Positions 13,908 through 37,481 of a stretch of DNA of 37,481 bases are shown piece after piece. The stretch is from an uncultured Nitrosospira sp. (GTDB lineage: Bacteria; Nitrospirota; Nitrospiria; Nitrospirales; Nitrospiraceae): the NCBI GenBank assembly GCA_900696515.1, contig CAADGK010000135.1:1-37481 (forward strand), in the 5' to 3' direction. The number at the start of each line of letters is the position of its first letter. The stretch's first letter is position 1. Made by a program: the position numbers and the translations under genes. The notes under the pieces are model-generated. The model made no database searches, was not told where the DNA came from, and was given only the letters and a program-made list of their open reading frames with translations.

Positions 13908-15224
13908 GTGATGAACGACCACCGCTCACACATTCCAGACCCCCCTCATACCCTTCGCACAACCGTCCTGGCCGGCGCCATCGGCAATGTGCTGGAATGG
14001 TATGACTTCGCGCTCTTCGGATACTTCGCGCCCGTCTTGTCCGTCCTGTTTTTCCCGGCTTCGGATCCGGCTTTATCATTGATCGCCACATTCAGCGTTT
14101 TTGCCGTCGGATTTCTGGCAAGGCCGCTGGGCGCACTCTGCTTCGGCTACTGGGGAGATACACGAGGACGCCGGTCGGCGCTGTCATGGTCCGTCATCCT
14201 CATGGCGATTCCCACGTGCCTCCTCGGCCTATTGCCGACCTATGCTCAGATCGGGCTCGCCGCGCCGATTGCGCTGACCGTCCTCCGTTTTATTCAGGGG
14301 TTCTCCGTCGGCGGTGAATTTACCGGATCGGTCACCTTCCTGATCGAACATGCCGCGCCGAACCAACGAGGCTATATCGGCAGTTGGGCTGGATTCAGCG
14401 CCCAAATCGGCGCGTTGTCGGGATCCGGCATCGGCGCCCTGGCCGGCGCGAGTTTTACCCAGGAGACCCTGCATGATTGGGGCTGGCGCATTCCCTTCTT
14501 GGCCGGGAGCGTCATCGCATTAGTCGGCTGGTACCTTCGCCGGCATCTTCCTGAATCGCCCGCCTTTGAACGACTCCAACAGAGCGGGGTGGTCTCATCA
14601 ACGCCGATTCGTGACTTTGCCCGTCAGAACCGGACACCACTGCTCCAGGTCATCGGACTCGTATTGCTGCATGGCGTGGGGTTCTACATCTTTTTTGTCT
14701 ATCTCCCCACCTATCTGACGAAGGTGAGTGATCTCTCGATGAAAACAGCATTGACCATCAATACGGTCTGCATGGCCGTCATGGCAATGCTGATCCCGAT
14801 CATGGGCAAGTTGGCCGATCGAATCGGCCCCCGACGGGTGCTCGCTGCCGGTGCGATGGGCCTCGCGCTCGGCACAGTCCCGTTCTTCTCCTGGTTCAGT
14901 AGCGGAGACGTGATATCGGTAGCCTTGGCGCAATTGACCGTGACCGTTTTCGTCGCCGCCTACATGGGGCCCTTCTTTGCCATCGTCGCCGTCCTCTTCC
15001 CGGTCGCCCACCGGTATACTGGGCTTTCGATTTCATACAATATGGCTTCGGCGCTGTTCGGCGGAACAGCGCCATTGGTCGCGACCATGGTTTTTGAACG
15101 GAGCGGAAACCTCCTTGCACCAGGATGGTATGTCAGTGCATGCGCGATCATCTCATTGCTTGTCCTCATAACGATTCGTGACGAAGGACAAGAGCCAGCT
15201 GCGTTTCACGCCAGCCCCCGTTGA
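13908..15224 (+). CDS. MFS transporter, metabolite:H+ symporter (MHS) family
   Basis: 438-aa inner-membrane carrier with about 12 transmembrane helices. The first helix carries the MHS signature GNVLEWYDFALFGYFAPVL. The first-loop MFS motif appears as GYWGDTRGRR, and the second half repeats it as GKLADRIGPRR. Members such as ProP, KgtP and CitA move small organic acids, betaine or proline with protons; the substrate here cannot be told. GTG at 13908 and ATG at 13911 are adjacent possible starts. The cytochrome P450 gene begins 49 bases after the stop, so the two may be cotranscribed, suggesting uptake or release of a compound linked to P450 chemistry (inference). Confidence 0.9.
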   Translation: MMNDHRSHIPDPPHTLRTTVLAGAIGNVLEWYDFALFGYFAPVLSVLFFPASDPALSLIATFSVFAVGFLARPLGALCFGYWGDTRGRRSALSWSVILMAIPTCLLGLLPTYAQIGLAAPIALTVLRFIQGFSVGGEFTGSVTFLIEHAAPNQRGYIGSWAGFSAQIGALSGSGIGALAGASFTQETLHDWGWRIPFLAGSVIALVGWYLRRHLPESPAFERLQQSGVVSSTPIRDFARQNRTPLLQVIGLVLLHGVGFYIFFVYLPTYLTKVSDLSMKTALTINTVCMAVMAMLIPIMGKLADRIGPRRVLAAGAMGLALGTVPFFSWFSSGDVISVALAQLTVTVFVAAYMGPFFAIVAVLFPVAHRYTGLSISYNMASALFGGTAPLVATMVFERSGNLLAPGWYVSACAIISLLVLITIRDEGQEPAAFHASPR

Positions 15225-25390: not shown

Positions 25391-26739
25391 GTCCCGTACT
25401 GGTTCCTCTGCTCACATTCGTCCTCAGTCTCCTGCTCTGGACTAGCGATACATCGGCCTTTTGCGGGTTTTATGTCGGCAAAGCCGATACACAACTGTTC
25501 AATAAAGCATCGGAAGTGGCCATCACTCGCCACGACAACAAGACCGTCATCACCATGGCCAATGACTTCAAGGGCGACGTGAAGGAATTCGCGATGGTCG
25601 TGCCAGTCCCTACCGTGCTAGAGAAAGATCAGATCCACATCGGTGATCCGGCTGTGCTGAAACACCTGGCCGATTACTCGGCACCGCGGCTGGTGGAGTA
25701 TTTCGACGAGAACCCTTGTGTCCGGTACGAGCTGATGGAACGCCGTAGTCTCGATATGGCAAAGAACATGGCACCGGCAAGCGCCTCAGCCAGAGAACGC
25801 GATACGGCACTCGGCGTGACTGTCGAGGCGCAGTATACCATCGGCGAATACGACATTCTGATTCTGTCAGCCAAGGAAAGTCACGGGCTTGAAACCTGGT
25901 TAGCTGAGGACGGATACAAGATTCCACATGGGGCTTCCACCGTGCTGCACAGTTACCTTAAACAGGACATGAAGTTCTTCGTGGCAAAGGTAAACCTGAC
26001 CGAGCAATCCAAGCTCGGCTTTACTCACCTGAGGCCGATCCAGATCGCCTTCGAATCCCCCAAATTCATGCTGCCGATCAGGCTGGGAACAATTAACGCC
26101 GACGGTGCACAGGAACTCTTCATCTATACACTGACAAAGCAAGGGCGCGTCGAAACGACGAACTACCGGACGGTCCGATTACCGGAGGCTCAGGAGGTTC
26201 CGCTGTACGTCAAGGATAAGTTCGGCGACTTTTATCGTGACCTCTTCACACAGCAAGTGAAGCGCGAACACGAACGCGGGGTGTTTCTCGAATATGCCTG
26301 GGATATGACCTGGTGCGATCCTTGTGCTGCAAACCCACTCTCAGCTGAAGAGCTGAAGAACTTGGGCATCTTTTGGCAAGAGCGCCCGAACGGCAAGCAG
26401 CGTGGAGGCACCATGCCGCAGGCACAGAACGTGTTCCTCACCCGTCTCCACGTTCGCTACGACGCGGCCCACTTTCCAGAAGACTTGATGTTCCAGGAAA
26501 CGTCCGATCGGAATAATTTCCAGGCCCGTTACATCCTTCGCCACGCATGGACCGGAACGGATGAATGTCCAGCCGCGACGGCCTACCGCCAGCAGTTGCG
26601 GGAGCGGTATGAACACGAGGCACAGACCCTGGCGAATTTGACCGGATGGAATATCGGCGCAATTCGCAATGCCATGAATCTGGCGTCATCGCCGGAAGGC
26701 ACAGTGAGGAAGTGGTATCAGCAACTCTGGGCGAACTAA
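25387..26739 (+). CDS. Secreted DUF2330 protein
   Basis: 450 aa. A signal peptide (VPLLTFVLSLLLWTSDTSAFC) precedes the DUF2330 core: CGFYVGKADTQLFNKASEVAI, then ANDFKGDVKEFAMVVPVPTVL, the run DYSAPRLVEYFDENPC, and a C-terminal part with WCDPCAANPLS and YILRHAWTGTDECPAA. DUF2330 proteins have no known function. Four Cys in two groups (CDPC, ENPC/DEC) are candidates for disulfides or metal binding. Its ATG overlaps the RnfD-like stop, so the pair is cotranslated, with the membrane protein probably the anchor or transport partner. A strong hairpin follows the stop. Confidence 0.87.
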   Translation: MSPVLVPLLTFVLSLLLWTSDTSAFCGFYVGKADTQLFNKASEVAITRHDNKTVITMANDFKGDVKEFAMVVPVPTVLEKDQIHIGDPAVLKHLADYSAPRLVEYFDENPCVRYELMERRSLDMAKNMAPASASARERDTALGVTVEAQYTIGEYDILILSAKESHGLETWLAEDGYKIPHGASTVLHSYLKQDMKFFVAKVNLTEQSKLGFTHLRPIQIAFESPKFMLPIRLGTINADGAQELFIYTLTKQGRVETTNYRTVRLPEAQEVPLYVKDKFGDFYRDLFTQQVKREHERGVFLEYAWDMTWCDPCAANPLSAEELKNLGIFWQERPNGKQRGGTMPQAQNVFLTRLHVRYDAAHFPEDLMFQETSDRNNFQARYILRHAWTGTDECPAATAYRQQLRERYEHEAQTLANLTGWNIGAIRNAMNLASSPEGTVRKWYQQLWAN

Positions 26740-26752
26740 ACCGGAGACAGCA

Positions 26753-26779
26753 GGCCGAGGCCTCAACGAGGCCTCGGCC
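26753..26779 (+). terminator. Hairpin terminator after the DUF2330 gene
   Basis: GGCCGAGGCC (26753-26762) and GGCCTCGGCC (26770-26779) form a perfect 10-bp GC-rich stem with a 7-nt loop, 14 bases after the stop. The tail TTGAGTATTGG is only mildly U-rich. Confidence 0.65.
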
Positions 26780-26814
26780 TTGAGTATTGGTATCAACTTC
26801 TCTGTGGAACGACG

Positions 26815-27729
26815 TTAACCTTGGAGTGAGAATGAGAATGCAGTGAGATGCACCGAGCTATACGCTGTGACCACATTGCTGTTCGCGCTGGGCGATTGGG
26901 CGTACTCCGGTCCTTGTTCTACAGACAGATCCGGCCCCTCAGCCTGATGCTCATGGCCCGGTGGTATCTCCTTCAGCAGGTCATGATGCAGCTTCTCAAA
27001 AAACCCAGCCAGATACGTCTGGAATTTCGGCAATTCAGCTTCCGCTTCCTTTAGGGCATTGAACACCTGCTGAATAAGCGAGGCAAGCTGCCCGTTCTGG
27101 ACCGACTCTTTGAGAACAACTCCGTCTGATGTATCCCCTGAGGGGGTGGGCGCCGTGGTACCGGTAGACGACTGCGGGATCGCCGCCGCCGTCTCAGGCG
27201 CCCCACCCGAGACATGAGTTGATCCTGTGACCACCGCCACCGATCGAATGACCTCCAGACTGAGGTCCAGACTGGAGACTGTGTCTAACCCACTCAGTCG
27301 TTCCGCAAGCTTCGCCGCATGCACTTGAGTCTTCTCTCCCTGTCCCTCGACAAATCCCCGAAAGAGCTGAGAGATATTCTGGAACAGCTTTTCAAGATCG
27401 TGCAACTCCTGATCATTGAGATGCCCATTCACCGCAATCCCGAAGTCTTGTTGAATCGCAACTTCTGTCGTTCTGGCTCCCACACTCACAGACGCATGAT
27501 CAGCCTCTAACCGAGCGCGATACGTACCGGTGCGAAACTCGGTTTCCAGGTCTGCCGTAAGGGTGACCCTATCTCCCTCTGCCGTGGTCACGTTGAGACG
27601 TCCGGAAAAATCATTGGATACGGCAAAACCGCTGACTTGCGTATCCAACCGCTGCCCCCCGACAGCGCCAAACTGGTGTAGATTGACGAATTGGCGGGGA
27701 TCAAGAGGAGTCAAGGCTTCTACCGGCAT
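26815..27729 (-). CDS. Hypothetical protein, low-complexity middle
   Basis: 304 aa, no signal peptide or membrane segment. Residues 40-100 form a beta-rich segment (SGRLNVTTAEGDRVTLTADLETEF, then ASVSVGARTTEVAIQQDFGI). Residues 105-150 are a Leu/Glu helix (LNDQELHDLEKLFQNISQLF). A Pro/Ser/Thr-rich linker (about 180-205) leads to a helical C-terminal part (LASLIQQVFNALKEAEAELPKF). The C-terminus ends in YSSVHLTAFSFSLQ. No family is recognised; the make-up resembles secreted or surface-associated proteins without a Sec signal. It is divergent from the DUF3015 gene, with ~130 bases of shared upstream DNA. Confidence 0.68.
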   Translation of the reverse strand: MPVEALTPLDPRQFVNLHQFGAVGGQRLDTQVSGFAVSNDFSGRLNVTTAEGDRVTLTADLETEFRTGTYRARLEADHASVSVGARTTEVAIQQDFGIAVNGHLNDQELHDLEKLFQNISQLFRGFVEGQGEKTQVHAAKLAERLSGLDTVSSLDLSLEVIRSVAVVTGSTHVSGGAPETAAAIPQSSTGTTAPTPSGDTSDGVVLKESVQNGQLASLIQQVFNALKEAEAELPKFQTYLAGFFEKLHHDLLKEIPPGHEHQAEGPDLSVEQGPEYAQSPSANSNVVTAYSSVHLTAFSFSLQG

Positions 27730-27862
27730 CAGACACCCTCTGAGTGGTTGAGTCCTACTGATACGTTCTTTGCTTCTCTATCGGCAGAGAAACAACTGAA
27801 CTTAAGACACTCTATGCTATAGTCAAAACCCAGGCTACCTTATCAAGGCAAGGAGGATCTTT

Positions 27863-28261
27863 ATGCGAAACATTTTGCACAGTGTGATGATCGCATCGGC
27901 ATGCCTGGCACTGACAGGAACGGGGTGCACCGTAAAGGGCACGATTAATCAGATCACTGATACGACGTCGAACGTCACCGGGACGACATCCGGAGCAGCC
28001 TGGTGGAATGAAGATGGTCAGATCAAGCCGGACTTCAAAGCTACCGCATTTGTGACCTTTAATCAGGCGAATCTGATCCAGGATTTGGCAGCAGGACGAG
28101 GCGAGTACTTGGGATCCATGGGTCGTCTATTGGGTATTCCGGCTGACCGCCAAACAGCATTTTCTTCAGCCGCTCAATCGAATTATTCCCAGGTGGCCGA
28201 CCAAACGCCTGCAGGATTGCTCAGCTTCTTACGCGAGACGTCCAAACCGTTCATGCAGTGA
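27863..28261 (+). CDS. DUF3015-family lipoprotein
   Basis: 132 aa with a lipoprotein signal (SVMIASACLALTGTGC, lipobox GTGC about residue 22). The mature protein shows the DUF3015 pattern FVTFNQANLIQDLAAGRGEYLGSMGRLLGIPADRQTAF, which in other bacteria marks small periplasmic proteins of unknown role. A strong AAGGAGG lies seven bases before the ATG. It converges with lhr, whose stop is nine bases beyond its own. A hairpin inside the end of lhr (28290-28315) may stop this transcript. Confidence 0.78.
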   Translation: MRNILHSVMIASACLALTGTGCTVKGTINQITDTTSNVTGTTSGAAWWNEDGQIKPDFKATAFVTFNQANLIQDLAAGRGEYLGSMGRLLGIPADRQTAFSSAAQSNYSQVADQTPAGLLSFLRETSKPFMQ

Positions 28262-28270
28262 CCGAGGATA

Positions 28271-31200
28271 TCATGGGGATCGCTCGACTGTTGCCGAACC
28301 GAAGGGTTCGGTAACAGCGAGGAGCCCATCACCGTGGCGACCGACTACGGCCCGGACAAGCACACCGTCCTTCAAGACCAGAAAGTTGGTTGGCACCGCC
28401 GGAACCCGTGGGCCTGGGAGAATCACCCCAGCGAGGTTCAGTGGGTCAGTCGCGGATAGTTTGATCTCATGACTTGAAGCGCCGCTCATTTTCCTGATCG
28501 CACGCAACGCTTCCACGGCCTCCGATAACGCGAACTGTTCGCCGGTAAATCCACTCACGAATCGACCACCACGCACCTCCCCTGCCATTTCCATCCGTCT
28601 GTATTGCACGAGCAGATCTCGCCAGGACTGAACCAGCGATTCACGAGCCAATAAATCACGAAAGACGACGCCGTAGCGGCGAAGGAGCTGGTGAGCCACC
28701 TGCTCGCTTGCGCTGGCAGCTGACAGCTGCCGGCTATCAGCTTGTCTGAGTAACGACCAGCGTCCCGCTGCATGCCGTGGTCGACGAGCCCGTTCGCGTC
28801 CTTCCGCACGACGTCGATGAGGGTCCATGAGGGAGCGGAGATTATCAAAGCCGTCAGCCGTTGCGAAACCGGCGGCGACGAGTTCCCAGAGTCCCTGCTC
28901 CACCTCAGTCTGCAGGTAATGGGTGATTCGGACCAGGTCATTGAAAAAGCTGGCCCCTTGTTGCGTTAAGACTCCGTGGAGATCCTGGGCAACCGGGCTC
29001 AATTGAGATATTGGCTCAGCGGGAATGGTCGTTGTCCCATCTCGCACACCCTTCATCAACCAGTCACTGTCTTCACGTGGGAACAAACTAATGGGCGCAA
29101 TACTGGTTGGAACAATCCGTCGACGATCCATGTCCCCTGATTGGGAAAGCCTCGGATGCGGAGAGAGACGCCCCCAACAGACCGCACCACCGAGACAAAG
29201 ACGATCTAGGAGTTCAGGTTCGTACTTGGCCATGCGCGAGCGCAAGAGCTGTGGCTCCCATGCGGAAGCCGCCGCCTCGAATCCTGCCAGCTGTCGAATC
29301 ACCGCTTGTAAACCGGCTTCCCCGTGCTGACGCGACCCCGGCACGACATGTTGCCATTGTAGGAGGAACCGCATGAAATCCGTCGCCGAAACCGGCTCCA
29401 CTTCCTTGCGCAAGATTCCGATCGTCAGCCGATGGATCCGAGCAAGTAAACGGCGATGGCACCACTCGGGCGAGGGAGTGGCAGAAAGTGCTGAGGACTG
29501 AGTGCGGAGTGCTGCGTGGGGACGGAACTGGCCTTGGAGGACCTGGCCTTGGGATTCAAGACGTACCATTGCAGCATCGATTGCCGACACCGAAAGATGC
29601 AGCCGCTCGGCCAATTCAACCGTCGTCATCGGGCCAGTGCTTTCCATCCAACCCAGAACAATGGTATCCAGAGTTGCGTCTTCTTCCCCCTCAAGTACCC
29701 GCTCAACCCGCTCCCTATTCTCCGTCGCAACCCATCCCTTTACCCCTGACGCCTCACCCTTCAGCGTGAGCAGGACAGCTCGCCCAGACTCCATAAGCAA
29801 CGGAAGATAGGCAGCCCATTGAGTTATCTCGGATTCAGGTAGCCAGGACAAGGTCAGGAGTGCGTCGTGAAGTTCATCGGCATCGCGCACGACCGGCCAC
29901 GATTCGCGGGCCACTTCAGCGATCGCCTCCGGATCGAGCGCGCCGACTTGACCCAGCAGGTCCGGCGGCAGGGTCCGTCTCATTTCCACCGCGCGCGCCC
30001 GCCGTTCTTCCAGCGGCGCATCATCGAGGAAGGCATAGGGATTCGCATTCAAGATCTCGTGCGAGAACACGGACGGCGTCGGTGTATCCACCGCCACACA
30101 GCGGATCGTCCCCGTCTCGATCCGGCGCAGCACAGCGATCAACCCCTCCAGATCCATTGCGTCAGTCAAGCAATCCCGCAGCGTTTCCTGCACCAGTGGA
30201 TGGTCCGGAATGTGACGAACCGCTCGTTGTCCGGTCAGATTCTCCTGGCAGGCAATCGCGTCCGGAAACACAGCGGCGAGCAAATCCTCGGACTTCATCC
30301 GTTGAATCTGGGGAGGAACTTTCTTTCCGTTCGAGAATCGCAGCAACGCCAGCGCTCGCGAGGCATTCCACCGCCAGCGGGTAGCAAACATCGGGGCCAG
30401 CAATACTGCTTGGATCAACGTCTCTCGCACGCTGTTGGAATGCAGATAGCTGAACACGGACTCCAGAGGGAAACTGTGCTTCTCCCCGAGCGAAATGACA
30501 AGACCATTGTCCGTGGCCGCGGCTTGGAGCTCAAAGTCGAACGTGACACAGAATCGTTTGCGCAGCGCTAACCCCCAGGCCTTGTTGATCCGCCCACCGA
30601 AGGGCGCGTGGATGACCAGCTGCATCCCGCCGCTTTCATCGAAGAACCGTTCGGCGACGACGCAGTCCTGGGTCGGCACGACACCTAATACCGCGTTTCC
30701 AGACACAACGTATTCGATAACCTGTTGGGCGCCACGGGCGTCGAGGGCGCATTCCTGGCGAAGCCAGCTGAGAGCTGACAGCTGACAACTCTCAGCTGAG
30801 GGATCTTCGCTTGTGAGTCGCTCAATCTCGGAACGAAGACCGGCGACTTCGGCAGAGAGTTCCGCTGTGCGGGAGGGAGCTTCACCGAGCCAAAAAGGAA
30901 TGCTGGGCGGGGCGCCATGAGCATCTTCCACCCGCACCTTGCCTGACTCCACGCCTTTGATGCGCCAGGACGTATTGCCAAGCAACATGATGTCGCCGGC
31001 CAAACTTTCCACGGCGAAATCTTCATCAACGGTACCAACCACTGTGCCTTCCGGCTCCGCGACCACCGCATAGGTGGCCGTGTCAGGAATAGCCCCACCG
31101 GAGGTGATCGCCGCCAGCCTCGCCCCACGACGACCCTTGATGCGATGATTGATTTGGTCATGATAAAGATAGGCCAGTCCCCTGCCTCGGTTGGTCGCAA

Positions 31201-32653
31201 TCCCCTCCGCCAACATACGGACGATGCGGTCGAATGTTGTCCGCTCCAGGTCACGATAGGGGTCAGCCCGTCGAACAAGCGCGAACAAGTCCTCTTCGCT
31301 CCAGGTCTGGGTCGCGGCAGCTGCCACGAGTTGTTGCGCCAGGATGTCGAGCGGAGCTAACGGCACTTCGATACGATCTAACGTACCGTTCTTGGTCGCC
31401 CGGATCAGCGCGGCACATTCGAGCAACTCATCTCTCGTCGTGGCGAACAGACGGCCTTTGGGAATCGCTTTAATCCAATGGCCGGCACGCCCGATGCGTT
31501 GCAAGCAAGTGGCAATGGCTCGCGGCGACCCGATCTGGCAGACCAGATCGACCGTACCCACGTCGATGCCAAGCTCGAGTGAGGCCGTTGCCACAACCAC
31601 GCGCGTCTTGCCGGACTTCAACCGTTCCTCGGCTGATAACCTGATCTGCCTTGACAGGCTGCCGTGATGGGCTGCCACCGCATCGGACCCAAGATCCAAG
31701 AGTCGCTCTTCCAGGTAATGAGACACTCGTTCAGCCAAGCGGCGCGTATTGACGAACACCAGCGTCGTCCGGTGTTCCCGCACCAGCTCGGCGACACGGT
31801 CATAGAGATCAGACCAGATGGCATTCGTCGCGATGGCACTCAATTCGTCTTTTGGGACTTCAACTGCGAGATCCATCCGGCGCCTATGGCCGACGTTGAT
31901 GATGGTGCAAGGGGAAAAGCTGATAGCCGACGGCTGATGGCTGTCAGCCTGGGAGTCGGGAATGATCGACGCTTCACGCTTCACGAACGACGCCGATCTA
32001 TTGCCGACAAGAAACCGCGCAACGGTTTCAATCGGACGTTGCGTCGAAGAGAGGCCAATTCGTTGTGGCTTCGTGAACGTGTGGGCTTCCAGCCGTTCAA
32101 GTGACAGGGCGACATGGGATCCGCGCTTATTCGGCGCGAGGGCATGGATTTCGTCCATGATCACGGTGCGGACGGTCTGTAAGAGTCGTCGGCTCTTGTC
32201 CGCCGTCAATAAGATAAACAGCGATTCGGGCGTCGTGACGAGAATATGCGGCGGCCGTTTGAGCATCTGTTGCCGATCCGCCATCGGCGTATCCCCGGTA
32301 CGGACGAGCACCCGAAGCTCCGGCATCATAAGTCCAGCCTGCAGCGCACGTTCGCCGATCTCGGCCAACGGTTTCCGAAGATTCTTCTGGATATCATTGC
32401 TCAGCGCCTTCAGCGGTGAGACATACAGGATATGAGTCTGATCATCGAGCTCGCGAGCGAGGGCTTGCTTAAAGAGCTGATCAATACAGGAGAGAAAGGC
32501 CGCGAGAGTCTTACCTGATCCGGTCGGCGCGGCAATCAGCACATCCGCGCCGGATTGAATCGCGGGCCAGGCCTGTCGCTGGACGTCGGTCGGCTGCCCG
32601 ACCGACGTCTGAAACCATTCAACAATGAGGGGATGAAATCCGGACAGCGGCAT
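28271..32653 (-). CDS. lhr: Lhr-type long DNA/RNA helicase
   Basis: 1460 aa from ATG 32653 (a GTG 18 bases upstream is alternative). Superfamily 2 helicase: Walker A APTGSGKT with Lys48, DEAD-box variant DEIH in VIMDEIHALAPNKRG, motif III-like SSTQRPIE, and motifs V-VI in ELGIDVGTVDLVCQ and CLQRIGRAGHW. The Lhr-specific winged-helix and long C-terminal half follow. Lhr proteins unwind 3'-tailed and RNA-DNA duplexes and contribute to repair. Four stretches (around residues 221-248, 618-629, 1046-1059 and 1302-1315) have a biased composition (ADSHQPSAISF, SCQLSALS, TQSSALSAT, SRQLSAASA) and coincide with heptad repeat DNA, so they look inserted. The core motifs are intact and the frame is unbroken. 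Confidence 0.92.
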   Translation of the reverse strand: MPLSGFHPLIVEWFQTSVGQPTDVQRQAWPAIQSGADVLIAAPTGSGKTLAAFLSCIDQLFKQALARELDDQTHILYVSPLKALSNDIQKNLRKPLAEIGERALQAGLMMPELRVLVRTGDTPMADRQQMLKRPPHILVTTPESLFILLTADKSRRLLQTVRTVIMDEIHALAPNKRGSHVALSLERLEAHTFTKPQRIGLSSTQRPIETVARFLVGNRSASFVKREASIIPDSQADSHQPSAISFSPCTIINVGHRRRMDLAVEVPKDELSAIATNAIWSDLYDRVAELVREHRTTLVFVNTRRLAERVSHYLEERLLDLGSDAVAAHHGSLSRQIRLSAEERLKSGKTRVVVATASLELGIDVGTVDLVCQIGSPRAIATCLQRIGRAGHWIKAIPKGRLFATTRDELLECAALIRATKNGTLDRIEVPLAPLDILAQQLVAAAATQTWSEEDLFALVRRADPYRDLERTTFDRIVRMLAEGIATNRGRGLAYLYHDQINHRIKGRRGARLAAITSGGAIPDTATYAVVAEPEGTVVGTVDEDFAVESLAGDIMLLGNTSWRIKGVESGKVRVEDAHGAPPSIPFWLGEAPSRTAELSAEVAGLRSEIERLTSEDPSAESCQLSALSWLRQECALDARGAQQVIEYVVSGNAVLGVVPTQDCVVAERFFDESGGMQLVIHAPFGGRINKAWGLALRKRFCVTFDFELQAAATDNGLVISLGEKHSFPLESVFSYLHSNSVRETLIQAVLLAPMFATRWRWNASRALALLRFSNGKKVPPQIQRMKSEDLLAAVFPDAIACQENLTGQRAVRHIPDHPLVQETLRDCLTDAMDLEGLIAVLRRIETGTIRCVAVDTPTPSVFSHEILNANPYAFLDDAPLEERRARAVEMRRTLPPDLLGQVGALDPEAIAEVARESWPVVRDADELHDALLTLSWLPESEITQWAAYLPLLMESGRAVLLTLKGEASGVKGWVATENRERVERVLEGEEDATLDTIVLGWMESTGPMTTVELAERLHLSVSAIDAAMVRLESQGQVLQGQFRPHAALRTQSSALSATPSPEWCHRRLLARIHRLTIGILRKEVEPVSATDFMRFLLQWQHVVPGSRQHGEAGLQAVIRQLAGFEAAASAWEPQLLRSRMAKYEPELLDRLCLGGAVCWGRLSPHPRLSQSGDMDRRRIVPTSIAPISLFPREDSDWLMKGVRDGTTTIPAEPISQLSPVAQDLHGVLTQQGASFFNDLVRITHYLQTEVEQGLWELVAAGFATADGFDNLRSLMDPHRRRAEGRERARRPRHAAGRWSLLRQADSRQLSAASASEQVAHQLLRRYGVVFRDLLARESLVQSWRDLLVQYRRMEMAGEVRGGRFVSGFTGEQFALSEAVEALRAIRKMSGASSHEIKLSATDPLNLAGVILPGPRVPAVPTNFLVLKDGVLVRAVVGRHGDGLLAVTEPFGSATVERSP
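28290..28315 (+). terminator. Hairpin within the 3' end of lhr, possible terminator for the DUF3015 gene
   Basis: GTTGCCGAACC and GGTTCGGTAAC pair with one mismatch around GAAG. It lies 29 bases after the DUF3015 stop. There is no U-run. Confidence 0.4.
28711..28748 (-). repeat. Heptad repeat within lhr (AGCTGAC type), site 4
   Basis: GGCAGCTGACAGCTGCC plus CTATCAGC form two to three heptads inside the lhr reading frame, encoding the biased stretch DSRQLSAASA. Confidence 0.6.
29487..29505 (-). repeat. Repeat fragment within lhr, site 3
   Basis: AGTGCTGAGGACTGAGTGC on the plus strand is identical, inverted, to the intergenic repeat at 34280-34298. In the lhr frame it encodes part of TQSSALSAT. 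Confidence 0.75.
30768..30802 (-). repeat. Heptad repeat within lhr (AGCTGAC type), site 2
   Basis: GCTGAGAGCTGACAGCTGAC and then ACTCTCAGCTGAG lie in frame, encoding ESCQLSALS. The heptad unit is AGCTGAN. Confidence 0.65.
31911..31995 (-). repeat. Composite repeat insert within lhr, site 1
   Basis: Two repeat types are adjacent: GCTGATAGCCGACGGCTGAT with GGCTGTCAGC (31929-31950), and a CTTCACG heptad block (31972-31992) identical over 21 bases to the inverse of the intergenic 12194-12214. It encodes about 28 residues (KREASIIPDSQADSHQPSAI and on) between helicase motifs. Confidence 0.75.
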
Positions 32654-32693
32654 GGTGCGGAATCGTACCACACCATGCCGGGTGACTCTATCC

Positions 32694-32911
32694 AGCCTGC
32701 ATGATTCATGACAGTTTGTGGCGACGCTGGTCTGTCTTGTCTATCTGGTTTGTCTGGTGCGGGGCAGTCATCTGATCCGGATCACTCACCCCGCTTCGCC
32801 GACTTTGCGAGGCGAGCACTCAACACTCACAATTCACAACGTTCTGAGTCCAAGCTTGTCACAGCAGCGGATTGGCGATTGCAGCAGAAGCGCTCATGAA
32901 TGATGCGGGCT
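32694..32911. mobile_element. Short element with terminal inverted repeats (MITE-like), copy 3
   Basis: Starts AGCCTGCATGATTCATGA and ends TCATGAATGATGCGGGCT, an 18-bp inverted repeat with two mismatches. It is 218 bp and has no ORF of its own that I can support. The right ~52 bases match copy 1 at 18085-18280; the middle matches the reverse of copy 2 at 19131-19345. It lies just upstream of lhr, so it could affect that promoter. The remainder of the gap, 32912-33110, shows no clear gene. Confidence 0.7.
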
Positions 32912-33110
32912 CTGGGCAGGTAAGCGCGATGGCATCACCCGCGTCACGCGAAGCTTGAAACCAGAAACACTGCACGGCATCGTCACCGATAGCGGATGGC
33001 CCAGATGCTCTCACGAGTCCCGTCAGATTGCGACCTGAAACCTACGACGTTGTCACCGCTGTCGAGATCACCTCGGAGACCGTTCACGTGACGAATATCG
33101 TGGTTCTCAA

Positions 33111-33233
33111 TCAGCGACGCCGTCGGCCACGTTTGGGGAGGTGAACGGGTCGGGCGAGTGCCGGTATCAGGCTACCGGCCAACAGCGGCATGCAAAGAAG
33201 TGCGAGTCCGAGTGCCAAAGCTTTCGACAGCAT
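33111..33233 (-). CDS. 40-aa hydrophobic/basic microprotein
   Basis: ATG at 33233 with GGAGG five bases upstream. Translation is MLSKALALGLALLCMPLLAG followed by SLIPALARPVHLPKRGRRRR and a TGA. One hydrophobic helix is followed by a strongly basic tail, so it could be a membrane-anchored microprotein with the tail in the cytoplasm or a cleaved signal peptide with a tiny basic product. No family is known. A longer frame to 33629 overlaps the glycosyltransferase gene on the other strand and lacks any signal, so the short start is preferred. It is divergent from the GT2 gene. Confidence 0.5.
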   Translation of the reverse strand: MLSKALALGLALLCMPLLAGSLIPALARPVHLPKRGRRRR

Positions 33234-33429
33234 AGAGACCTCCGAGGAAATAGCCTTGTGTCCTCTATCGGCCGACAGGCAGTATGACTTTACCGACTGA
33301 AACATCCGGACTATCGGCATCCAGACGTCGCCGGCACGTTCCCTCATCCCTCGCCACAACTCGTGCTCGATTCCCGACCGGGCTGAATACCCATTCCCTG
33401 ATCCATCGTTCCTGTGGCATGATGTCGAT

Positions 33430-34155
33430 ATGGATCTATCAATCGTCATCCCGGCGTTCAACGAAGCGCGTCTGATCGAACAGACTCTGCGATCCGTGAC
33501 GACGTCACTGGCCGCAAACGCGGAGTCCGGCTTCTCATCGGAAGTGATCGTGGTCGACAACAATTCCACCGACAACACGGCGGAGCTTGCCAGACAGACC
33601 GGCGCCCGGGTTGTCTTCGAACCGATCAACCAGATCGGTCGGGCTCGGAACGCGGGCGCCGCTCAGGCGAGTGGTGAGTGGCTCCTTTTTCTGGATGCGG
33701 ACAGTGTGCTCAGTGCGGGACTGTTGGCGGATATTTTTCGTGTGATCGATTCGGGAAAGTACGTCGGCTGCGGGAGTACGTTGCGAATGGAAGGACTGCC
33801 CTGGTGGGCGCATCTCACATTGCAACTCTGGACCGGTACTTCCGTGCTCTGCCGCTGGGCCGCCGGGGCACTCGTTGTCTGCCGCCGCGATGCCTTTCAA
33901 GCCGTCGGCGGCTTCGACCAAGAACTCTATGCGTTGGATGAAATCAGACTCAGCAAGCAACTCAAACAGTGGGGACGGCAGCGGAACCTGCAATTTACTA
34001 TTTTGACAACACACCCACTTGAAACCTCGTCTCGCAAAATCTCACTCTACTCGAGCCGCGAGATTGCATCTCAGATCTTCCGCATCTTTTTCCTACCAAA
34101 GAAGACCTTGCAAGATAAAAAGCGTCTCTCTGTCTGGTACGACGGTCGACGGTAA
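33430..34155 (+). CDS. Glycosyltransferase family 2
   Basis: 241 aa, a single GT-A domain. It opens DLSIVIPAFNEARLIEQTL, with VIVVDNNSTDNTAELA (donor nucleotide binding), GRARNAGAAQASGEWLLFLDADS (the DAD metal motif) and a late FDQELYALDEIRLSKQLK, where the ED/DE region suits the acceptor base. It lacks transmembrane helices. The reaction is transfer of a sugar from NDP-sugar to an unknown acceptor. No other polysaccharide genes are adjacent; the methyltransferase-GT2 fusion at 10.5 kb is a different subfamily. A run of heptad repeats follows the stop. Confidence 0.9.
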   Translation: MDLSIVIPAFNEARLIEQTLRSVTTSLAANAESGFSSEVIVVDNNSTDNTAELARQTGARVVFEPINQIGRARNAGAAQASGEWLLFLDADSVLSAGLLADIFRVIDSGKYVGCGSTLRMEGLPWWAHLTLQLWTGTSVLCRWAAGALVVCRRDAFQAVGGFDQELYALDEIRLSKQLKQWGRQRNLQFTILTTHPLETSSRKISLYSSREIASQIFRIFFLPKKTLQDKKRLSVWYDGRR

Positions 34156-34156
34156 C

Positions 34157-34298
34157 CAGTTTCAGGTGTCGGGTCTCAAGTTTCAAGTCTAAGGGTCTTC
34201 AGTTTCTGCAAAACATGAAACATAAAGCCTGAAACTCGAAACCAGAAACTCAGCCCACTTCGCCCGCTCAGCGAGGCAAGCACTCAGTCCTCAGCACT
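34157..34298. repeat. Cluster of heptad repeats (TTTCAAG and AGTGCTG types)
   Basis: CAGTTTCAGGTGTCGGGTCT, then CAAGTTTCAAGTCTAAG, later AACATGAAACATAAAGCCTG and AAACTCGAAACCAGAAACTC: 7-nt units based on GTTTCAN and its inverse. The end carries GCACTCAGTCCTCAGCACT (34280-34298), also found inverted in lhr. The gap 34156-34382 holds no other feature. Confidence 0.7.
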
Positions 34299-34382
34299 GC
34301 AAGCGAGTCTGGCTCCGTGCCTCGTGGGCCACGGAGCCGGACGATGCGCCTTACGATGCGAACAGATGCCCAAATAAACCAG

Positions 34383-35549
34383 TTACAGAGGACGCCAGAG
34401 AACATTCACCACACCAACGGCATTGGGATACCATCCGGCCCCAGCCCATGCTGTATGGGATTGCAGGCAGGTGTAGCGTCGCCCTTGATAGACGACCACG
34501 TCACCAACCTTGTAGGTCTTGCCTTCTGTCCACGTCGTTCCTGACGGTGGAGGCGGATTCGTGCCGGGCGGGAAGGTGGTATCGAGCACATAGCGTACTC
34601 CCAAATCAGCGGTGAGGGCGTACACTTGAAGTATCGTCCTTCCGACAGGCACCACAACCGTTCCGCTCTGGAGTTGACCGATGCGCACGAATCGCGAGGC
34701 CTGATTGACCAGAGTCGCCAGATCTTTCAACCACTCGCTCGCCGGCTGGTCTCCGTTCTGGACCGTCAAGTTGTGCGTCTCTACGTCGGCACCGTTGCGA
34801 TCAAACACGCGGAATTTCATCGTCGTCCCAATCGGCAGGTCACTCGCGGCAATCTGGCCGAGTTGCTGAAATCCGGTCGGGGTCGGCGGCGTTCCGCCCC
34901 CTCCTCCGAATGTCACATCCGAACAACTGTAAAATGCCTCCGTGCTATCGGAACGTTGCCACACTGCGTACAGCAGGTGACGTCCTTGGCGCGCTGGCAA
35001 ATTCAACTGCATGAGGTAACGGCTATCCGGTGTGGTGATGACCTGCGGACCAAACACTTCGGCGACGAGGTCTAAATCAGACCACTTCAGCGGTGCGGTC
35101 GCCGGGTTCCACCCATTTCGCGTGAGATAAAATTGCCATGACAACGTGCGATGGGGTGCGGTGACATGATAGCGAAACTCATAGCGCCCGCTCGAGATCG
35201 GTGACCATGGCGTGGCGTCCCAGTCGCTCCGCGCCAAGTCGAACCCCTTGAACTTCTCTTGGCCACCGGCACAGAGTTTTCCGTCCGGCACCACCGCGCG
35301 ATGGTTGCCGCCGGCCCCAGCCTGATTTACACCGTTCCAATCGTAGATCGCCTGAGCTCCGCCGAACGCGATCGCCGCCACACACTCGGAGAGGGCCTGT
35401 CCCTGGTGTTTATAACAATTGTATTGTCGGCTGATGGGAAATTCAGGCGCGCCATGCGCTGACGCCGGTACCGTCTGAGCAAGTATGCTGAGAGCTGTAC
35501 CAATCGACAGAATAGTGGACATGATTGCAAATGTACGAACATAGAACAT
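34383..35549 (-). CDS. Secreted AA10 lytic polysaccharide monooxygenase with GbpA-like and CBM5/12 domains
   Basis: 388 aa. Signal peptide residues 1-31 ending in ASA; the mature protein begins with H32, as required for the copper histidine brace. The second copper ligand is H133 in TAPHRTLSWQFYLT, and the axial aromatic F206 is in TEAFYSCSDV. A glycine-proline linker follows, then a middle domain (QQLGQIAASDLPIGTTMKFRV) like GbpA domain 2. Residues 343-388 (TWTEGKTYKVGDVVVYQGRR, then YTCLQSHTAW) form a chitin-binding module of the CBM5/12 type. It oxidatively cleaves chitin or cellulose, most likely chitin. GGAAGGAG precedes the ATG. No chitinase gene is nearby. Confidence 0.93.
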   Translation of the reverse strand: MFYVRTFAIMSTILSIGTALSILAQTVPASAHGAPEFPISRQYNCYKHQGQALSECVAAIAFGGAQAIYDWNGVNQAGAGGNHRAVVPDGKLCAGGQEKFKGFDLARSDWDATPWSPISSGRYEFRYHVTAPHRTLSWQFYLTRNGWNPATAPLKWSDLDLVAEVFGPQVITTPDSRYLMQLNLPARQGRHLLYAVWQRSDSTEAFYSCSDVTFGGGGGTPPTPTGFQQLGQIAASDLPIGTTMKFRVFDRNGADVETHNLTVQNGDQPASEWLKDLATLVNQASRFVRIGQLQSGTVVVPVGRTILQVYALTADLGVRYVLDTTFPPGTNPPPPSGTTWTEGKTYKVGDVVVYQGRRYTCLQSHTAWAGAGWYPNAVGVVNVLWRPL

Positions 35550-35800
35550 CTCTGATGCTCCTTCCTTCGCAGGGCGATAGATGGATTGCTATGAAACCTT
35601 AGAGGACCTTGTCTGCCCGGCGGACGGCTCTAGAGTGGAGCAAGTATGGTGCCCATGTGACACACATTCGTTACCCAATGTATTCGGTGCATTATGGGAT
35701 GAGTCGGGCTGACATGATTGCAGATGTGAATGATCTAGCCTTCAAGTACTCCTCGCAGCTGCACGATGACTAGTGATCGTGCACAAGCAGTGACCTGAGC
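35550..35800. other. Intergenic region with a small hairpin
   Basis: Between the LPMO promoter side and the TlpA-like stop. GCACGAT-gactagtg-ATCGTGC forms a 7-bp hairpin around 35760-35781, 20-40 bases after the TlpA-like stop on the minus strand, possibly ending that transcript. No ORF with coding character is seen. Confidence 0.4.
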
Positions 35801-36331
35801 TCACCCTGGCTCCGCGAGCAGGGCCTGAATCTGCCGCTCTGTTTCGCTGTACCCACCCTCGCCGATTTTCACATGGCGAATAATCCCGCGCTTATCGATC
35901 AGGTACATCGCCGGCCAGTAGCGATTCCCATATCGGTTCCAGGTTGAGAACTCATTATCGATCGGCACAGGAAAACTGATCTCATGCTCCTTGAGATATC
36001 GCCTCACATTCTCGATCTCGCGTTCGTGCGAAAACTCTGGCGAATGCACTCCAATCACCACGAAGCCCTGATTCTTGTACTGCTGGTACCACTGCTTCAC
36101 ATAGGGCTCCACGTTTCGGCAGTTGTAACAGCCAAACGTCCAGAACTCGACCATGACCACTTTTCCTTTGAGTTCAGCCATCCGCAGCGGCGCGCTATTG
36201 AGCCAGGTGGCGTTCGTAATCTCAGGAGCAGGCTTTCCAAGCATGGCATCCGCCGATTGCAGTGAGAACCATCCGACCACCACGACCATGACCAGAATTC
36301 CTAGCCAACGACCCCATGACTGTTTCCACAT
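35801..36331 (-). CDS. Membrane-anchored thioredoxin-like protein (TlpA/redoxin family)
   Basis: 176 aa from ATG 36331, which has GAGG nine bases upstream; a longer frame to 36403 lacks one. A single hydrophobic helix (WLGILVMVVVVGWFSL) anchors it or serves as signal. The thioredoxin fold follows: LGKPAPEITNATWLNS, KVVMVEFWTFGCYNCRNVEPY with the active-site pair C68-x2-C71 (CYNC), then FVVIGVHSPEFSHE, and the cis-Pro segment YWPAMYLIDKRG. YNC in the active site is typical of TlpA-like proteins coupled to c-type cytochrome or sulfur chemistry. It probably reduces disulfides in the periplasm. A molybdopterin oxidoreductase gene lies upstream on the same strand, 208 bases away. Confidence 0.88.
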   Translation of the reverse strand: MWKQSWGRWLGILVMVVVVGWFSLQSADAMLGKPAPEITNATWLNSAPLRMAELKGKVVMVEFWTFGCYNCRNVEPYVKQWYQQYKNQGFVVIGVHSPEFSHEREIENVRRYLKEHEISFPVPIDNEFSTWNRYGNRYWPAMYLIDKRGIIRHVKIGEGGYSETERQIQALLAEPG

Positions 36332-36426
36332 ATTCTGTACCTCGGTTGGAGGTTCACCTTTTACCCAATCGTACTCCAAGTCCTCACGATCACAGACGAA
36401 CACCAGCGACCCGCAGAGTGATCAAA

Positions 36427-36535
36427 CAAGTCATCCAGGAAGACCGTAGCGAGCGAAGGGCCGAGGCGTACCCTCTGGGGTACGTCGAGGGTCTGAGCGA
36501 TGCGAGAACGATGCTAGCGGCTTGTTTCATCACTC
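36427..36535. repeat. Palindromic intergenic repeat, second copy
   Basis: CGAGCGAAGGGCCGAGGCGTACC, ctctgg, GGTACGTCGAGGGTCTGAGC and GATGCGAGAACGATGCTAGCGG form nested inverted repeats. It is the counterpart of 4027-4117. It separates the TlpA-like gene from the molybdopterin gene. Confidence 0.6.
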
Positions 36536-36539
36536 TGCT

Positions 36540-37313
36540 CTAAATGCCGGCGTACCATTCATACCCCTGATCCTCCCAATAGCCGCCTTTTCCCCCACCG
36601 ATGTCGGCTAGAGATTCAACCAGTTCAATCTTCATGACGTACTTGGCTTGTTTGTACCCAAGCTGGCGCTCAAACCGCAGCCGCAGGGGCGCGCCGTGCG
36701 GAATATCCAACGGCACGTCATTGAGCTCGTAGGCCAAAATCGTCTGGGGATGAAAGCAATCGGCCACCGCCATGCTCTCGTAATAGGCAATCCCTTCGTC
36801 GTCCACGTCAGCACAGTGAAATACCGCATACCTCGCATTTGGCAGTGGCTCGACCTGGTGCATCAAGTCTCCGATTGGCACACCGGTCCATTTACCGATG
36901 GCACTCCAGCCCTCTACACAATCATGACGCGTGATCTGTGTTCGAGAGGGAAGCTCTTTTAGTGCTGCGAGGGACCAACTCCTCGGCTGCTTGACCAAGC
37001 CGGCCACCTCCAACGTCCAGTCAGAAAAGTTCTGAGCCACGTGCTCCGCATAGGCCTCCGTGCCAGGGTCGGTATTGCCATTGGCCGGAAAGATGGCCGA
37101 GATGTCGGACACACCGTACTCCTTCGCCAAGGCATCTTGCGGCGTCACGGCTCGCTGTACGGTTTCCGTCACCCGTTCAGCCTTGCTGAGGATGCCCGGA
37201 AACCAGCTGCTCTGGGTAAGGTTGTCACAGCCGGATAACGCCACCAGACTTGCAGCACCGACTGTCCCCTTCAGGAACTGTCTTCGTTTCATTGATTGTT
37301 TCTGCGCAAACAT
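36540..37313 (-). CDS. Tat-exported molybdopterin-dependent oxidoreductase (sulfite-oxidase/MsrP fold)
   Basis: 257 aa from ATG 37313, which follows GGAGG by four bases; the frame from 37379 lacks one and its extra N-terminus contains repeat-like DNA. The N-terminus MKRRQFLKGTVGAASLVALSGC is a twin-arginine signal, with C29 as a possible lipidation site. The catalytic molybdenum-ligand Cys is C132 in ITRHDCVEGWSAIGKWTGVP, the signature of the sulfite oxidase/MsrP (YedY) family. FHCADVDDEGIAYYESMA and YELNDVPLDIPHGAPLRL are further family blocks. It probably reduces or oxidises a small sulfur or N-oxide substrate in the periplasm. No membrane cytochrome partner (MsrQ) is adjacent. Confidence 0.9.
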   Translation of the reverse strand: MFAQKQSMKRRQFLKGTVGAASLVALSGCDNLTQSSWFPGILSKAERVTETVQRAVTPQDALAKEYGVSDISAIFPANGNTDPGTEAYAEHVAQNFSDWTLEVAGLVKQPRSWSLAALKELPSRTQITRHDCVEGWSAIGKWTGVPIGDLMHQVEPLPNARYAVFHCADVDDEGIAYYESMAVADCFHPQTILAYELNDVPLDIPHGAPLRLRFERQLGYKQAKYVMKIELVESLADIGGGKGGYWEDQGYEWYAGI

Positions 37314-37356
37314 ATTGCCTCCGTAATCAGTGGTGGGTGTGGGAGCTTCTGGTTTC

Positions 37357-37477
37357 ATGGATCGAGTTTCATGTTTCATGTTTAACGTTTCAAGTTATGC
37401 AGGAGTTACACTTCTCAGACCTGAAGCCTGAAAGATGAAACCTGAAACTATTGACCGTGCCGCTTCACGCTTCACGA
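37357..37477. repeat. Heptad repeats (TTTCATG and CTTCACG types)
   Basis: GAGTTTCATGTTTCATGTTT with AACGTTTCAAG, then GATGAAACCTGAAAC and CGCTTCACGCTTCACGAATGA, near the right edge of the window. These are the same families as at 34157 and 12188. Confidence 0.65.
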
Positions 37478-37481
37478 ATGA

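Follow-up and report, generated by a model that had tools for sequence, protein, structure and literature searches.

A CbpD-type LPMO gene, probably gained by horizontal transfer, in a small group of Nitrospira genomes of apparent comammox type

GbpA of Vibrio cholerae joins an AA10 domain to a GbpA_2 module and possesses a further domain. CbpD of Pseudomonas aeruginosa (PDB 7sqx and 8c5n) is built from an AA10 domain, GbpA_2 and a C-terminal chitin-binding module, a CBM73; it is active on chitin, and its host encodes chitinases of both the GH18 and the GH19 family, one of each (PMC7902821). Three features are common to chitin-active AA10s, namely a TAXH motif, a tyrosine on the surface and a glutamate in the active site, with CbpD carrying SAPH and YDWNGVN (PMC9344471), and an axial phenylalanine is typical for AA10s (PMC11137697). 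According to PMC13325158, a chitin-active LPMO is also kept in Lactiplantibacillus plantarum, a bacterium without chitinases; among 26 organisms whose LPMOs are putatively active on chitin, L. plantarum and P. putida are the only ones to combine a lone LPMO with the lack of GH18, GH18 is likewise absent from Cellulomonas flavigena, and the purpose of the orphan LPMO is left open for L. plantarum.

The window examined here, a stretch of 37,481 nucleotides from a draft genome (G000), carries an LPMO gene that an earlier note, made from the sequence alone, had described as encoding a secreted AA10 enzyme with a GbpA-like domain and a CBM5/12 module (Table 1). That description holds, with secretion as a prediction. 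LPMO_10, GbpA_2 and CBM_5_12 each scored above their Pfam cut-offs, LPMO_10 with 176.8 bits against a cut-off of 23 and with all model positions covered (1–183 of 183), as in a full-length AA10. The protein thus has the trimodular layout of CbpD, with CBM5/12 rather than CBM73 as the third module. Residues 1–31 resemble a Sec signal peptide when judged by eye, with a mean hydropathy of 1.45 over residues 6–26.

Table 1. Features of the LPMO gene and its surroundings in the window
Feature	Position	Strand	Remark
CbpD-type trimodular AA10 LPMO gene	34383..35549	-	ATG start, 388 aa, intact ORF
Putative signal peptide, residues 1–31, ASA just before His32	35457..35549	-	judged by eye
AA10 catalytic domain, residues 32–212	34914..35456	-	Pfam LPMO_10, E 9e-52
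AA10 domain features: H32, H133, F206, T130-A-P-H133, YDWNGVN 69–75, E204			alignment and sequence
GbpA_2 module (module X), residues 231–317	34599..34859	-	Pfam, E 1.8e-14
CBM5/12 chitin-binding module, residues 339–378	34416..34535	-	Pfam CBM_5_12, E 1.8e-13
111-bp conserved block upstream of LPMO	35634..35744	-	candidate promoter/regulatory region
Ribosome-binding-site-like GGAAGGAG ahead of LPMO ATG	35558..35565	-	AGGAAGGA invariant in four genomes
9-bp hairpin downstream of LPMO stop	34311..34338	-	paired in 4/4 genomes; no T run
AhpC-TSA/redoxin family gene	35801..36403	-	one edge of insertion site
Molybdopterin oxidoreductase (Oxidored_molyb) gene	36540..37379	-	flanking gene
Family 2 glycosyltransferase (GT2) gene	33430..34155	+	other edge of insertion site
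Lhr-type helicase gene	28271..32671	-	next neighbor

A direct check of the sequence confirmed His, His and Phe at residues 32, 133 and 206. The alignment comprised 24 rows, some of them truncated tblastn segments (the window protein, 22 of the 31 loci from the scan for relatives, and a more distant LPMO, L089); in it A131, H133, E204 and F206 are the same in every row, and H32 and T130 in nearly every one. The copper ligands named in the earlier note are therefore in place, forming a predicted histidine brace with an axial phenylalanine and with a putative cleavage site ahead of H32. The stretch T130-A131-P132-H133 (TAPH) fits the TAXH motif of chitin-active AA10s, where CbpD has SAPH (PMC9344471), and Tyr69 supplies the surface tyrosine. 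The L2 consensus Y(W)EPQSVE is replaced by YDWNGVN, the same departure as in chitin-active CbpD. From TAPH, together with the YDWNGVN shared with CbpD, chitin is therefore our best guess for the substrate, and judged by homology the enzyme most likely oxidizes chitin.

CbpD (7sqx) is also the closest solved protein by both sequence (E 6.8e-73) and fold (E 3.9e-28), with 43% identity in the fold alignment, whereas V. cholerae GbpA (2xwx) reaches only 26% although it shares AA10 and GbpA_2. LpLPMO10A of L. plantarum is likewise a chitin-type AA10 from a host without GH18 chitinases (PMC13325158), but it is a single-domain protein of a Gram-positive commensal, whereas the protein described here is trimodular and comes from a nitrifier. 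The structure prediction proposed in the earlier note supports the fold and not the copper geometry, the model being of middling quality (mean pLDDT 70.5 and pTM 0.47, with pLDDT of 56–60 around residues 31–80). Superposition of the whole chain on 7sqx gave TM scores of 0.44/0.56 with an rmsd of 12.6, and AA10-only structures matched the model with target-normalized TM scores of 0.82–0.83.

The named relatives with more than 85% identity are all Nitrospira MAGs, namely UBA5698 (95%), RBC100 (87%) and Bin36 (86% and 89%, in two pieces). A PF03067 match above cut-off was found in four of the 79 genomes of the genus Nitrospira, all four of these carriers being drafts. The window genome has matches to AmoA and AmoC; across the carriers, AmoA was matched in G000 and, partially, in G061 (Bin36), with no match in G010 and G076, and AmoC exceeded the cut-off in all four, in G010 (two fragments) and G061 by fragments only. 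Since AmoC is present in 4/4 carriers and RBC100 is counted among comammox MAGs (PMC7305129), the gene content identifies the carriers as comammox Nitrospira, least certainly G010, which sharpens the nitrifier-like host proposed earlier. The same two observations overturn a reading of G010 and G076 as strict nitrite oxidizers based on the missing AmoA, less firmly for G010. Across the phylum, 5 of 395 genomes had PF03067 above cut-off, two of them (G263 and G292) from another family of the order. In the protein tree the LPMOs of both fall beside those of Stenotrophomonas and a Lysobacterales MAG (99/98) and thus represent a separate acquisition. In both genomes (L090 and L089, respectively) the CbpD-type LPMO gene adjoins a gene for a repeated-domain protein (partial sequence) and one with a CXXCH haem motif.

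A nitrifier was expected to have little use for chitin, and the gene content of the carriers agrees. Our search covered GH18, GH19, GH20, NagA and CBM5/12. GH18 was matched in none of the 79 Nitrospira genomes (6/14 control genomes) and GH20 in none of the four carriers and one of the 79, G031 (control 4/14). GH19 was likewise found in no carrier, and five of the 79 genomes had partial matches (43–46 positions), three of them above cut-off, with 0/14 in the controls, so that the sensitivity of this model is not demonstrated. No carrier had NagA above cut-off, three of the four showing weak matches of about 45–54 positions (control 7/14 above cut-off), and none had a CBM5/12 outside the LPMO; the five genomes with CBM5/12 comprise the four with LPMOs and one with a match below cut-off (G028). 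The combination of a GH18, GH19 or GH20 hydrolase with NagA, by which a chitin degrader would be recognized, was accordingly not found in these drafts, and a dedicated chitin degrader, which the earlier note had named as the outcome that would speak against it, is not indicated. Because GH18, GH19, GH20, NagA and additional CBM5/12 modules were not found in the carriers, the Nitrospira protein is by gene content an "orphan" chitin LPMO like that of L. plantarum, setting it apart from CbpD with its GH18- and GH19-encoding host. Scavenging of the polymer to feed the cell itself, one of the roles suggested earlier, is unlikely for the same reason, the hydrolases and NagA not having been found. 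The single GH20 match in G031 (L071, E 7.5e-89) lies in a genome with AmoC and without an LPMO match.

As for the export route, canonical type II secretion was considered and set aside, with GspD above cut-off in 0/4 carriers (control 2/14) and secretin matches below it in all four. Among the secretin regions of G000, L091 is a type IV pilus set (PilM/N/O/P), L094 is a Tad set and L086 has a GspD-N0 secretin close to a gene with PilZ; L093 and L092 have TPR-secretins, one of which adjoins T2SSE and T2SSF genes.

The Nitrospira copies are 86–95% alike, and the nearest relatives found outside the genus are Roseateles/Mitsuaria-type proteins with 58–60% identity, in a scan by short peptide patterns that may miss nearer ones. 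These proteins belong to another phylum and show a CBM5/12-like C-terminus as in the Nitrospira LPMO, visible in the alignment, where 3/9 rows are cut within this module. In a midpoint-rooted tree of 31 proteins, from which the partial sequences L004, L024 and L032 were left out, the three full-length Nitrospira LPMOs group at 100/100 with nine Burkholderiales proteins (from Roseateles, Mitsuaria, Rubrivivax and a Burkholderiaceae MAG), which hold together only at 90/79; a branch of 0.63 leads to the Nitrospira group, and the next deeper fork carries a long-branch warning. Because the nearest relatives outside Nitrospira are of the Roseateles/Mitsuaria type, horizontal gain of the gene by Nitrospira is likely, and a single gain from the Burkholderiales side, with the direction of transfer presumed, is the simplest reading. 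Five viral pattern matches contained no relative, giving no sign of viral carriage, and 89 of 72,556 plasmid records matched, every one with less than 60% identity. GC3 gave no sign of transfer, the LPMO gene (63.2) matching four neighbors (63.6–65.7), a hint that the gene was not acquired recently.

In trees of 12 genomes, the molybdopterin gene places the four carriers together (97/98), and the GT2 gene groups G000 with G010 and leaves G061 apart from the remaining carriers. Between G000 and G010, dS is 0.29 for the LPMO gene against 0.70–1.21 for the redoxin, GT2 and molybdopterin genes; later exchange of the LPMO gene among carriers is therefore possible, a point against a single gain.

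The gene sits among conserved neighbors. The order in G000 and G010 is molybdopterin gene, redoxin, LPMO, GT2 and Lhr, and in G061 it is the same, split over two contigs; in G076 the redoxin gene is absent between the molybdopterin and LPMO genes, and the contig ends shortly past the LPMO. In eight LPMO-free loci (L044, L045, L047, L048, L049, L050, L054 and L069) 12–16 bp separate the aligned end of the redoxin gene from that of GT2; in L069 the redoxin match covers just the end of the gene. A further LPMO-free locus, L055 (G009), has a longer gap, and no more than fragments of its redoxin and molybdopterin genes were matched, which suggests decay; in L043, L046, L052 and L053 the redoxin is present with no GT2 within the stretch examined. 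A search for LPMO remnants, which also took in a 14th locus that has the gene (L003), found none in the 13 LPMO-free loci (lowest E 1.8 by tblastn and 0.17 by blastn).

Upstream of the gene, the 111-bp block is 69–83% identical as compared to 51–68% for the rest of the leader (six pairs from four Nitrospira genomes), having been picked by eye from the alignment and with a small gap in one pair (69.1 vs 67.9). Downstream, the hairpin is paired in 36/36 cells, above slid controls, with a single pair changing on both sides; with four sequences the shuffle control was not significant (240/500 shuffles as high), and the hairpin is a possible transcript end. The interval 34156–34250 between LPMO and GT2 contains GTTTCAAG-like repeats. 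At its N-terminus the molybdopterin gene is predicted to encode MKHETRSMKPEA, which resembles a GTTTCAAG-like repeat in translation, and the start of this gene may therefore be miscalled.

The frame is open and free of stops in three genomes, and dN/dS is 0.051–0.12 in nine pairwise comparisons (Nei-Gojobori; dS 0.29–1.63, some near saturation), the flanking genes giving 0.035–0.108 in 11 comparisons and no value in the 12th. In G061, the frame departs from the LPMO sequence behind residue 124 on one contig and is picked up again on a second one (L024:8373 and L004:1-167). The 18-bp ends at the breaks match as an inverted repeat at 17 of 18 positions, with ATGAG on both sides, and the gene looks as if interrupted by an insertion sequence that duplicated 5 bp of its target. 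Because it is broken there, the LPMO is dispensable in G061.

We lean toward a reading, at somewhat better than even odds, in which a small comammox clade gained a CbpD-type chitin LPMO by transfer and uses it for attachment to chitin, for priming chitin for neighbors, or for both. The gene would have come from a donor that was probably a Roseateles/Mitsuaria-like betaproteobacterium and would have been inserted between the redoxin and glycosyltransferase genes, with its upstream region kept in the carriers. The protein would be exported, cleaved ahead of His32 and loaded with copper at the H32/H133 brace with axial F206, and CBM5/12 and the AA10 surface would hold it to crystalline chitin. 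With a reductant available, and with H2O2 or O2 as cosubstrate, the enzyme would oxidize C1 and nick the chitin chains. As the search turned up neither hydrolases nor NagA for using the products, the likely benefit would be indirect, in that the slow-growing nitrifier is anchored on chitin-bearing particles and/or the chitin is loosened for chitinolytic neighbors, whose GlcNAc catabolism would free ammonium, the energy source of the nitrifier. A stronger form makes the LPMO an ammonium-harvesting public good, opening chitin that the nitrifier cannot eat so that the released GlcNAc is deaminated by chitinolytic neighbors and the resulting ammonium goes to the nitrifier; we regard this form as rather unlikely. 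Reciprocal feeding through urea is a theme of the Nitrospira literature, and the public good, if real, would extend it to a nitrogen-rich polymer.

The alternative that survives best, with a clearly smaller though appreciable chance, is a GbpA-like adhesin that serves only attachment, to chitin or to GlcNAc-bearing biofilm surfaces, its redox activity being incidental. The retained GbpA_2 and CBM5/12 modules and the missing chitin hydrolases suit it, as does the GbpA equivalog NF009690 being the sole NCBIfam match, which stays below cut-off (152.2 vs 481 bits), a difference from GbpA itself. However, the copper ligands and second-sphere residues are under strong purifying selection, beyond the needs of a pure adhesin. 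The same selection bears on a captured passenger gene without a role in Nitrospira, which the rarity of the gene and its interruption in one carrier would favor; with low dN/dS (at dS partly near saturation), a stop-free frame in three genomes, a conserved leader and GC3 like that of the neighbors, we consider a passenger improbable. Copper capture, another of the roles first suggested, would here mean that the protein captures copper for the copper-dependent ammonia monooxygenase or delivers it to that enzyme, and AmoC in all four carriers and the reactivation of copper-free CbpD by azurin (PMC7902821) fit such a role. No positive evidence for it emerged: the Pfam model of the BIM1-like copper acquisition protein (PF20238) scored 15.1 against a cut-off of 27 bits, the chitin-binding surface and both modules are kept, and 47 of 49 AmoA-matched genomes have no LPMO match, making it very improbable. 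A binning error that put a betaproteobacterial stretch into a Nitrospira bin, as the betaproteobacterial affinity of the nearest outside relatives might suggest, has a negligible chance, since contamination is ruled out by the shared insertion site and the eight genomes with the LPMO-free site, the gene lies among Nitrospira genes in differently named MAGs, and the copies resemble each other far more than the Burkholderiales proteins.

Comammox bacteria are viewed as ammonia specialists, and an LPMO under purifying selection without chitinases would, on our preferred reading of attachment and/or priming, tie part of this group to surfaces that bear chitin. In one cluster of ammonia-oxidizing archaea, 11 of the 15 genomes are reported to encode GH18 chitinases, perhaps bacterial in origin (PMC12753310), and contact with chitin may therefore be a wider theme among nitrifiers. 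In the literature searched (titles and the starts of abstracts, with few subscription papers covered) we found no description of this LPMO gene; the MAG name UBA5698 had no match, and the word "chitin" is absent from the nitrifier paper PMC10579370. The protein itself belongs to a known family type, and the orphan, horizontally gained, comammox setting is the part that we did not find described. Since genomes with an occupied and with an empty site are both available, the locus is a clean test case for the purpose of orphan LPMOs.

Two further observations concern the window itself. When positions 26001–37481 were compared between G000 and G010 (L002) in 250-bp steps, identity was 94–100% from 26001 to 32000 and mostly 72–91% over the remainder of the window, where individual steps rise to 97% in the LPMO gene and 96% in the redoxin gene; a sharp, recombination-like boundary lies near 32000, inside the Lhr gene. 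Elsewhere in the window, a cytochrome P450 gene (15178–16689, E 7.1e-69) overlaps the end of an MFS transporter gene (13908–15224).
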